Shown here in pieces: positions 45,254 through 48,399 of a stretch of DNA of 58,845 bases. Below the pieces are notes generated by a model. The model was given only the letters and a program-made list of their open reading frames with translations, was not told where the DNA came from and made no database searches. Each line of letters begins with the position of its first letter. The stretch's first letter is position 1. The translations under genes were made by a program, and so were the position numbers. Source of the stretch: Bifidobacterium breve (GTDB taxonomy: Bacteria; Actinomycetota; Actinomycetes; Nanopelagicales; Nanopelagicaceae); contig CAMCXX010000005.1 of NCBI GenBank assembly GCA_945883755.1, positions 1-58,845 on the forward strand. Reading direction: 5' to 3'.

Positions 45254-45280
45254 CAAAATTTATTGCTATCGTTAGCAATA

Positions 45281-45366
45281 CGGGAGCTAAGAAATTTGGC
45301 TGAGAGGATCTGAAATTCAGATCGACCGGGTGACCAGTTCGGTAATGCGAACTGGAAAAGGAGTAA
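45281..45366 (+). promoter_or_regulatory. TPP (thiamine pyrophosphate) riboswitch
   Basis: The thi-box landmarks appear in order: CGGGAGC, GGCTGAGA (45298-45305), a variable hairpin GATCTG/CAGATC (45307-45323), GACCGGGTGACC, and the long stem CCAGTTCG-GTAATG-CGAACTGG (45334-45355), which shows the conserved TAAT in its loop. The 3' end AAAAGGAG is the ribosome binding site of the next gene, 6 bases before its ATG, so ligand binding would most simply block translation. No covariance model was run. Confidence 0.82.
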
Positions 45367-45369
45367 GTA

Positions 45370-45933
45370 ATGAGCGCATTAGAAATAGCAGCTTTTTTAA
45401 TCTCACTGGTAGCGGTAACGCTAGGTGCATTAGGTATGAGATTTGCCTGGCCATGGTGGGTTACTGGATCAGTTTTATACGGAGCTCTTTTCTACCAATC
45501 TGAGTACTACGCCAGTGCGCTTCTGCAACTAGTTTTCATAGCTGCGGCGATCTGGGGATGGATTGGTTGGGGTAAAGAGGGAGCAAAGCCAAGGTACAGT
45601 AAAAATAATGAGCGAATAATAATCGCTACAGTTTTAATTCTAGCTACCTTAATTTTGTACCCAGTACTGATTGATATTGGTGCAACATCATCTTTGATTG
45701 AAGCATTTGGATTTACTGGAAGCGTGATCGCGCAGGTATTAATGGTGCTACAAAGATTTGAAGCATGGCCGTTGTGGCTAGTGGTGGATCTGGCTTATAC
45801 CTATCAGTACTTTAAAGGTGAGCTATATCTAACCTCAGCTTTGTACTTAATTTTTTCAGTCATTGCCGTATTTGGCTGGGTACGTTGGCAGAAAGAGTCA
45901 AAGGTAAATGCAGTACCAAACTTTATTAAGTAA
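45370..45933 (+). CDS. pnuT: PnuC-family transporter, predicted thiamine transporter PnuT
   Basis: This 187-residue protein has about seven predicted membrane helices and two PnuC half-motifs: WWVTGSVLYGALFYQSEYYA with GWIGW, and WPLWLVVDLAYTYQYFKGEL with GWVRW. PnuC-family proteins carry nicotinamide riboside, riboflavin or thiamine by facilitated diffusion. A TPP riboswitch directly upstream points to thiamine (PnuT), the reasoning originally used to define PnuT. The next gene, a P-loop kinase, overlaps it by 26 bases; such channels usually need a kinase to trap the substrate. Confidence 0.82.
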   Translation: MSALEIAAFLISLVAVTLGALGMRFAWPWWVTGSVLYGALFYQSEYYASALLQLVFIAAAIWGWIGWGKEGAKPRYSKNNERIIIATVLILATLILYPVLIDIGATSSLIEAFGFTGSVIAQVLMVLQRFEAWPLWLVVDLAYTYQYFKGELYLTSALYLIFSVIAVFGWVRWQKESKVNAVPNFIK

Positions 45934-46456
45934 TCTGGCGAAGGTTAAGCACGGAGATTTAATTGCAATTGATGGACCGGCTGGCTCTGGTAAATCCACT
46001 CTTGCCAGATCTCTTGTAAAGGATTTGCCCAACTCGGTAATCATCGCAGTTGATGATTTATATGATGGCTGGGCGGATGCATTCACACCCAGATTAACCG
46101 CCAGAGTAATTGAACAAGTGCTTTTGCCAATCTCAAAAAATCAGGAGTTTAGATATGATATTTATGATTGGCATAAGGCAAAGTTTGTTAAATCTAATGT
46201 AGTTCCACGAGACCAGATTTACATCCTGGAAGGGGTCTGTGCTGGACACCAGCAATTTCGCGGATTTATTGATCTATTGATCTGGCTAAATGTCTCAGAT
46301 GAGATTGGATTAAAACGTGTTTTAGATAGAGATGGAGATCTGATTCGCGATCAAATGATCCAGTTCCAGCAGGCACAAAGAAGCCACTTTGCCCAAGATT
46401 TAACTGAAGCTGCAGCGGATTATAAATTTGATGGCGTGCCGAAAACTAACCTTTAG
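45908..46456 (+). CDS. Uridine-kinase-like P-loop kinase, candidate vitamin-trapping kinase
   Basis: This 182-residue P-loop NTPase has Walker A GPAGSGKST, the lid/acceptor region VDDLYDGW, YDWHKAKF and LEGVCAGH, and resembles uridine kinase/nucleoside kinase-like proteins found across Actinobacteria. The substrate is unassigned. It overlaps the pnuT-like gene by 26 bases and must share its riboswitch-controlled transcript, so a role in phosphorylating imported thiamine is plausible. A nucleoside kinase or a merely accidental neighbour are the alternatives. AAAGG precedes the ATG. Confidence 0.7.
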   Translation: MQYQTLLSNLAKVKHGDLIAIDGPAGSGKSTLARSLVKDLPNSVIIAVDDLYDGWADAFTPRLTARVIEQVLLPISKNQEFRYDIYDWHKAKFVKSNVVPRDQIYILEGVCAGHQQFRGFIDLLIWLNVSDEIGLKRVLDRDGDLIRDQMIQFQQAQRSHFAQDLTEAAADYKFDGVPKTNL

Positions 46457-46473: not shown

Positions 46474-46479
46474 TTGCAG

Positions 46480-48399
46480 GTGGCTGATCTAACTGGTGAA
46501 TTAATCGATAATCGGTATTTGCTACAACGCAGCTTAGCCGCCGGTGGCATGGCAAGTATTTACGCCGCTTTAGATACTCGGTTAGATCGCCAAGTAGCGG
46601 TCAAAATAATGCACCCCCACTTAGCAAATGATGAAGCATTTGTATCTAGATTTATTAAAGAGGCAAAGGCAACAGCTGCGCTATCTCATCCAAATATTGT
46701 TTCAATTCAAGATCAGGGATGGAATGAGGGTGGCGTTCCGGCAGTTTTTATCGTGATGGAGCTAGTTGAAGGCAGCACTTTGCGCGATTTAATCAATGAG
46801 CAAGCACCAGTAAGTATTGAGAGTTTATTTCGATATTTAAGTCCAGTAGTTTCAGCGCTTGCTGCAGCACATCAAATTGGAATTGTTCATCGTGATATCA
46901 AACCTGAAAATATTTTAATCTCCCATGATGGCAGAGTTAAGGTAGCGGATTTTGGTTTGGCGGTAGGTGCGGTAATTGGTCAAACCTTAACCGCTGAATC
47001 AAGTGTGGTACTTGGCAGCGTTTCATATCTATCCCCAGAACAGGTCCAACGTGGTGTTGCTGATGCTCGCAGTGATATCTATGCATTGGGGATTGTTATT
47101 TTCGAGATGTTGACTGGCAAGAAACCATATGATGGTCAAACTCCAATTCAAATTGCATACAAACATGTAAATGAGCGCATTCCAAATCTGCGTGAGATAA
47201 ATCCAAATACTCCGCAAGAGGTTGCTGATCTAATTTATGCAGCCACTGCTCCCAACCCAGATGATCGTCCCAAAGATGCCCAGGAGTTTCTGAGCCAATT
47301 AAGAGGGATTGAGGTAAAGATTGATCCAAAACGTAGGCAGATGAGTTTAGAGCTTGATCTGCCACCAATAAAAAGTAGTGTTTTGAATAAGGCAAATAAA
47401 AGAGCGAAGGTTAAGGTTGGATCAGCTTTAGCAGGATTAAAAGAGAAGACATCTCAGATCATTACTTTAAAAGGTAACACTCAGCAGTTGGAAGGAGCGC
47501 CGGCGGTGGTTACAAAAACTCGCAAAACATCACGCCGAGTCAAACGTAATCGAGCTATTGCGTTAGTACTTCTTCTATCTCTCATCTTCGGTGGCTACAC
47601 ATTATTTAACGCCGGCCGAGTTACGGTGCCATCTCTTGCTGGCATGAGCCAAAAGGAGGCGGCGGCGGCTGTTGCAGAGATTGGCTTAAGCGCGGAGATT
47701 GGTGAGGAGATATTTAGTGAGGATATTCCAGCTGGCCGGGTGATCTCATCAACTCCGGCAGGAGGAGGCAAGATCGCTCAAGCAGGCATAGTTAAGTTAA
47801 TAATTTCTAAAGGTAAAGAGCGAATTCTTATTCCAAATCTAATTGAGTTAACACCTGATATTGCTACACAACAATTAGCAGATCTTGGCTTAAGGGTTGG
47901 TGAAATCTTTGAGGTATTTTCAGCACAAATCAAAAAGGGTTTCGTCGCAAAAATTGAACCAGCAGTTGGCGCAGAGGTTAAGCCAAACTCGATAGTTAAT
48001 CTCTTTGTCAGTAAAGGAAATGAACAGGTACCGCTTGCATCTTATGTTGGCCTCGGCGGGGAGCAAGCATTAAGTGAGTTAACGCAAGCTGGCTTTGATG
48101 TATCACCTACCTACAAATTCAGCGACACTGTATTAACCGGATTGGTGATCTCTCAGACACCTGAAAGTGCCCCGCTGGTAGATAAAGGCAGTGAGATTAC
48201 TTTAGATATTTCTAAAGGACCAGAGTTTGTATTTATTCCAAATGTAATCTCAAAGAGTTCAAATCAAGCCACATTGGATTTAGAGAACAATGGATTAAAG
48301 GTTGTTGTGAAAGGCAGAGGAGATAAAGTAATTAGCATCTCACCAAAACAAGGATCCAAAGTAAAGGTTGGATCTACTGTGACAATCTCACTAGGTTAG
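46480..48399 (+). CDS. PASTA-domain Ser/Thr protein kinase (PknB/PknL type)
   Basis: This is a transmembrane eukaryote-like kinase of about 639 residues. The kinase domain has the Gly loop SLAAGGMASIYAA, VAVKIMHPHL with the ATP Lys, HRDIKPENIL, DFGLA and SYLSPEQ. A basic linker is followed by one membrane helix (AIALVLLLSLIFGGYTLF) and four extracellular PASTA repeats, starting VTVPSLAG, ILIPNLIE, VPLASYVG and VFIPNVIS. PASTA repeats bind muropeptides or lipid II, so it probably links wall status to phosphorylation of division proteins. Its position near crtE and aroG matches mycobacterial pknL, which lacks PASTA repeats. Confidence 0.93.
   Translation: MADLTGELIDNRYLLQRSLAAGGMASIYAALDTRLDRQVAVKIMHPHLANDEAFVSRFIKEAKATAALSHPNIVSIQDQGWNEGGVPAVFIVMELVEGSTLRDLINEQAPVSIESLFRYLSPVVSALAAAHQIGIVHRDIKPENILISHDGRVKVADFGLAVGAVIGQTLTAESSVVLGSVSYLSPEQVQRGVADARSDIYALGIVIFEMLTGKKPYDGQTPIQIAYKHVNERIPNLREINPNTPQEVADLIYAATAPNPDDRPKDAQEFLSQLRGIEVKIDPKRRQMSLELDLPPIKSSVLNKANKRAKVKVGSALAGLKEKTSQIITLKGNTQQLEGAPAVVTKTRKTSRRVKRNRAIALVLLLSLIFGGYTLFNAGRVTVPSLAGMSQKEAAAAVAEIGLSAEIGEEIFSEDIPAGRVISSTPAGGGKIAQAGIVKLIISKGKERILIPNLIELTPDIATQQLADLGLRVGEIFEVFSAQIKKGFVAKIEPAVGAEVKPNSIVNLFVSKGNEQVPLASYVGLGGEQALSELTQAGFDVSPTYKFSDTVLTGLVISQTPESAPLVDKGSEITLDISKGPEFVFIPNVISKSSNQATLDLENNGLKVVVKGRGDKVISISPKQGSKVKVGSTVTISLG

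Follow-up and report, generated by a model that had tools for sequence, protein, structure and literature searches.

In fresh water, actinobacteria of the acI group rank with the most abundant bacteria, and they rely on external vitamin B1. Published acI genomes have been described as those of thiamine auxotrophs, in which nearly all biosynthetic and salvage enzymes are missing and a THI element lies ahead of a putative pnuT (PMC5301498). The locus described here raises the question of how thiamine, once imported, reaches TPP in such a cell, and whether the small kinase gene that overlaps pnuT supplies the first step. The window, by which is meant the whole stretch of 58,845 nucleotides that was analysed, belongs to an acI/Nanopelagicaceae-like actinobacterium, to judge by its gene content, by PMC5301498, and by named relatives. 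In it, carotenoid genes are followed by a riboswitch, pnuT, the kinase gene and a gene for a Ser/Thr protein kinase (STPK) (Table 1). The kinase reading frame, said in the earlier note to start 26 bases inside pnuT, overlaps the 3′-end of pnuT by exactly 26 nt, and is separated from the STPK gene by 17 nt. The genome itself is 80.8% complete, and the same pattern is found in near-complete single-contig relatives (G001, G005, G013, and G032). The transporter passes the NCBIfam cut-off for PnuC (63.1 vs. 42.45 bits), and its acI orthologues have already been put forward as PnuT (PMC5301498). The best-supported function of the overlapping gene is that of a thiamine kinase making thiamine phosphate, and the evidence set out below makes this function probable.

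Table 1. Features of the riboswitch-pnuT-kinase locus in the window.
Feature	Position	Strand	Evidence or remark
TPP-type riboswitch aptamer, variant form	45281..45360	+	Rfam envelope 45270-45374, RF00059
CUGAGA core, pyrimidine-sensing T-loop	45300..45305	+	Invariant in all 29 rows of alignment A4
Fused P4-P5 helix, J4/5 and J5/4 absent	45334..45355	+	Alignment to RF00059
pnuT, Pnu-type transporter, predicted thiamine channel	45370..45933	+	PF04973, 1e-36
Candidate thiamine kinase gene, P-loop, UCK/PRK fold	45908..46456	+	182 aa, ATG start, overlap with pnuT
Walker A GPAGSGKS (aa 23-30)	45974..45997	+	G23, G26, G28, and K29 invariant in alignments A1 and A2
Asp49-Asp50, VDDLY/HMDDLY motif	46052..46057	+	D49 invariant in both alignments
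Trp88, (Y)DW motif	46169..46171	+	Aligns with the YDF motif of uridine kinases (profile alignment)
PASTA-type Ser/Thr protein kinase (STPK) gene	46474..48399	+	Fixed syntenic neighbour, outside the proposed pathway

Judged by its sequence, the encoded protein is an intact small-molecule kinase, the substrate of which is not readable from that sequence. It had been described earlier as a uridine-kinase-like P-loop kinase that is not a recognizable thiamine pyrophosphokinase (TPK), and both descriptions hold. PRK (PF00485; 2.7e-8, 34.3 bits against a cut-off of 22) and AAA_18 (1.6e-9) both match above their cut-offs, the predicted fold is that of UCK/PRK enzymes, and no TPK model, PF04263 included, is among the family matches listed for the protein. 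Against the equivalog model for the uridine kinase Udk (TIGR00235), the score is far under the cut-off (34.8 vs. 220.3 bits). The best NCBIfam match is the unnamed family PRK06547 (1.8e-25; 89 bits, under its cut-off of 173), which is also matched, at about 3e-27, by relatives from a second family, f39, and from genomes with ABC importers. A profile of 32 homologues retrieves uridine kinases, phosphoribulokinases, and nicotinamide riboside kinase 1 (1.3e-10) from the PDB, and an AlphaFold2 model (pLDDT 94.8) is matched by Foldseek to the TTM1 kinase domain, UCK2 (E about 1e-9, TM up to 0.75), PRK, and pantothenate kinase. Asp49, compared with uridine-cytidine kinase, is presumably the catalytic base. 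The alignment of 25 sequences shows Trp88 without exception, that of 32 sequences keeps it in at least 90%, and Glu108-Gly109, Arg137, and Arg141 are invariant. On the best reading, the gene encodes a thiamine kinase that shares neither sequence nor fold with the thiamine kinases and pyrophosphokinases already known.

What such a kinase might act on is suggested by the thiamine enzymes encoded around it in the family, for which TPK (PF04263), ThiE, ThiC, and ThiL were searched. No PF04263 TPK was found in any of 37 family genomes, near-complete single-contig ones included, and only two of them have ThiE and one ThiC. ThiL is above its cut-off in 32 of the 37 and is represented in two others by fragments, either split or at contig ends; in the genome of the window it reaches 235.5 bits against a cut-off of 184.15. 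ThiL requires thiamine phosphate and is useless without a source of it. Since ThiL is kept without ThiE, the missing step is specifically that from thiamine to thiamine phosphate, and since ThiE is absent, thiamine phosphate can come only from outside the cell or from a kinase acting on thiamine. In a wider sample of 60 genomes (the 37 of the family plus 23 from elsewhere in the class), none showed a TPK catalytic domain of full length, and ThiL is above cut-off in 52; the TPK-model matches outside the family cover 33–38 of 113 positions and lie inside longer proteins, which we take to be probably SteA-like. As a separate observation, one genome (G034) carries a very divergent kinase (branch 4.4; L046 4294-4842; L062) together with a ThiB-ThiP importer under a TPP riboswitch. 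ThiL was not found in this genome, which is 89% complete, despite the kinase, and the organism may import TPP directly.

The kinase is tied to pnuT far beyond the window. The order pnuT-kinase-STPK is kept in 30 of 30 loci of the family, and a kinase is present in 191 of 201 family genomes at E ≤ 5e-39, so that the arrangement is not due to chance. In 99 of 102 loci, some of them duplicates, the two reading frames overlap or lie 30 nt or less apart, with a median of −8 nt. The [THI element]-pnuT-kinase unit also occurs in family f39 (G341, G517, G551, and G563). The G517 locus is identical in sequence to the named locus L072, where the unit has a tRNA on one side and on the other an SDR gene, after which comes the gene for 2-oxoglutarate dehydrogenase E1; in a related genome (L071), the kinase is found at the same place without pnuT. 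Because the unit recurs in f39, at least once in an unrelated neighborhood, the linkage is more than block synteny, and synteny alone as its cause is weakened by f39 and L072. It may be recorded separately that the E1 gene near the kinase, with or without pnuT, encodes a TPP-dependent enzyme (kinase at L071 7968-8525 and L072 7929-8495). A literature search found no paper joining pnuT with a uridine kinase. The earlier note, in proposing a non-orthologous thiamine kinase, had looked to a co-occurrence of the kinase with riboswitch-controlled pnuT, and had counted a canonical TPK elsewhere in the genome combined with an unconserved linkage against the proposal; the linkage to riboswitch-pnuT is in fact conserved across two families, and the count of TPK in the family is zero of 37.

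The distribution of the kinase follows thiamine import more closely than it follows PnuT. Among 61 family genomes examined, PnuT is present in 43 and the kinase in 41 of these, the two exceptions (G015 and G172) being genomes in which pnuT reaches a contig end on the kinase side. Ten of the 61 have the kinase without PnuT: eight possess a ThiB-ThiP ABC importer under a TPP riboswitch (in G026, ThiB is above the TIGR01254 cut-off), one (G096) possesses YkoE/YkoD under a TPP riboswitch, and in one with 6% contamination (G222) no importer was found. ThiE and the kinase occur together only in G026 and G096, both of which have an importer. Since the kinase is kept where ThiBP or YkoE/D replaces PnuT, it tracks thiamine import and not PnuT as such, and a dependence of the kinase on PnuT was rejected on this ground. 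PnuT and ABC importers have been exchanged at least two or three times with the kinase kept. In six genomes (G026, G129, G157, G164, G136, and G096) the kinase adjoins the STPK gene with neither PnuT nor a riboswitch in the slot; where ABC-importer genomes were examined, as in G026, no riboswitch stands directly upstream of the kinase.

The ten of the 201 genomes without a kinase match comprise four of genus g5, one of genus g40, the two with contig ends, and three (G181, G208, and G229) that are 79–86% complete and also miss strong PnuT matches. ThiE is present in all five genomes of g5 and g40 (G028, G110, G154, G198, and G174). It lies there with [TPP riboswitch]-ThiO-ThiG and, where the contig covers this region, takes the same slot ahead of the STPK gene; ThiE in g40 was forecast from g5 beforehand and then confirmed. 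No thiamine importer was found under the TPP riboswitches of these genomes, and in g5 a CytX-like HMP permease, under the CytX cut-off, is preceded by a TPP riboswitch. The kinase is thus present with thiamine import and absent without it, the absence resting on one clade: in a tree of the STPK neighbor, g5 and g40 form a single clade (99/99), so that the absence counts as one evolutionary contrast and not five. The site is also an instance of operon replacement, ThiE and [TPP riboswitch]-ThiO-ThiG (g5 and g40; L066 3473-6759, L200, and L201) occupying the place that [THI]-pnuT-kinase has in the auxotrophs.

The TPP-type control element that the earlier note placed ahead of pnuT is borne out, in an unusual form. 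In a permissive search of 351 bases, RF00059 scores 37.9 bits (E 4.2e-6); the gathering score of 54.3 is not reached, which is why a default Rfam scan gives no match. A covariance model of the variant, R1, built partly from the window aptamer, gives that aptamer 94.7 bits and has its best scores in family f1 and the next in f39. Over the whole aptamer, 98.2% of cells are paired, with 8 double-change pairs and none of 500 shuffles as high, and P4-P5 forms one covarying helix (98.3% of cells paired, two double-change pairs). The pyrophosphate-pocket nucleotides of J4/5 and J5/4 are both deleted in the window aptamer, and shortened P4-P5 strands without canonical J4/5 and J5/4 are found in all 79 distinct pnuT-linked aptamers as classified by pattern (loci L001-L030, L055-L080, L162-L178, and L232-L235). 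In the E. coli thiM riboswitch, the metal coordinating the pyrophosphate is bound by G60, C77, and G78, which stand at these places, and G78 also contacts the pyrophosphate (PMC3764141). Within the same family, the riboswitches of thiB, thiC, thiO, and cytX are canonical in form, L189 deviating. The molecule sensed by the pnuT-linked aptamer may be thiamine or thiamine phosphate. Because similar shortened aptamers precede genes for CytX (f14), YkoE (f32), and ThiO (f33) in other families, a change of ligand is offered as a hypothesis, and the idea that the collapsed P4-P5 is specific to pnuT was dropped. One of these aptamers, of the TPP type with shortened P4-P5, lies ahead of a YkoE-YkoD fusion gene (L239 1939-3924; G538, f32).

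The reading in which the kinase phosphorylates thiamine has to be set against three others. The gene could serve some general function outside thiamine metabolism, acting for instance on a nucleoside or a cofactor precursor, and simply lie in a conserved block next to the STPK gene, pnuT having moved in at its side. This is unlikely: the kinase does remain a neighbor of the STPK gene where PnuT is missing, and other Actinomycetota have homologues without thiamine context, but the kinase is missing exactly from the importer-less prototroph clade, whose slot is filled by thiamine biosynthesis genes, the overlapping or abutting pnuT-kinase unit appears again elsewhere in f39, and the step from thiamine to TMP would be left without an enzyme. 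The homologues in question form a separate clade. A search of 46 named loci, a set that includes some from the family itself, turned up neither thiamine genes nor THI elements within 8 kb of homologues in Streptomyces, Cellulomonas, and others, the false matches that the THI-element regular expression gives in high-GC loci being disregarded. In one locus a PRK06547-type kinase domain is fused to PabB, component I of aminodeoxychorismate synthase (L052 5051-7159; G038). With homologues outside thiamine contexts and one fused to PabB, the wider family may have other substrates.

Two alternatives remain. A thiamine pyrophosphokinase yielding TPP directly would fit the co-occurrence with thiamine import too, and the genome that retains the kinase though ThiL was not found (G034) would be explained by it. 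It is nevertheless quite improbable, as almost every family member without ThiE retains ThiL, which is sensible only where thiamine monophosphate is produced or taken up, and UCK/PRK-fold kinases transfer one phosphate. Hardly to be expected, finally, is the pairing of a PnuC-type nicotinamide riboside channel with a kinase for nicotinamide riboside or a nucleoside: the transporter passes the PnuC cut-off and the profile of the kinase extends to nicotinamide riboside kinase 1 and uridine kinases, but a THI element stands ahead of pnuT in the family pnuT loci examined, and nine of the ten genomes that retain the kinase without PnuT have a thiamine-type importer. Many genomes have a separate PnuC-like gene (about 30% identical) as well, and in the one case examined no kinase lies beside it. 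The THI element and the replacement of the transporter thus weaken this pairing.

The thiamine kinase proposed at the outset, and earlier guessed at, draws its support by inference from the lack of TPK in all 37 genomes, the linkage to pnuT, the tracking of import, and the presence of ThiL without ThiE. For the module as a whole, we infer a substrate, a product, and a riboswitch response as follows. Thiamine would equilibrate across the membrane through PnuT, and the kinase, produced from the overlapping message that also encodes PnuT, would use the γ-phosphate of ATP to phosphorylate thiamine at its hydroxyethyl group and so trap the vitamin as thiamine phosphate. ThiL, encoded elsewhere in the genome, would add the second phosphate to yield TPP, and the TPP-type riboswitch ahead of pnuT would switch off the module once the vitamin is in ample supply. 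A more far-reaching version, in which an undescribed fold class of thiamine kinases works with PnuT or ABC importers and ThiL under a pocket-less TPP-riboswitch variant that senses thiamine or thiamine phosphate and not TPP, is doubtful as a whole. If the thiamine kinase is real, it closes the gap in acI salvage by which imported thiamine reaches TPP, shows an essential vitamin step to have been solved by a non-homologous enzyme, and gives a function to part of an unassigned family of actinobacterial kinases.

Compared with known systems, the module is a new solution to a known step and not a new kind of system. It resembles the pairing of a PnuT/PnuC channel with a cognate kinase, where facilitated diffusion is combined with metabolic trapping, in that a Pnu-type gene and a small-molecule kinase gene form an overlapping unit with a THI element; it differs in that the candidate is neither TPK nor NadR/NRK by sequence and its substrate is predicted. 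With the PF00485 superfamily of UCK, PRK, and pantothenate kinase it shares the fold, the Walker A motif, the region of the catalytic Asp, and invariant arginines on the C-terminal side; compared with uridine kinases, it is shorter, has YDW in place of YDF, and stays far under the Udk cut-off. PRK06547, a family of unnamed actinobacterial kinases, is its top family match over almost the whole length, with a score below the cut-off of that family. Closest in proposed chemistry is E. coli ThiK (YcfN), which has the same reaction from thiamine to thiamine phosphate and the same partner, ThiL, but whose fold is aminoglycoside-phosphotransferase-like, whereas that predicted for the candidate is the P-loop fold of UCK/PRK.
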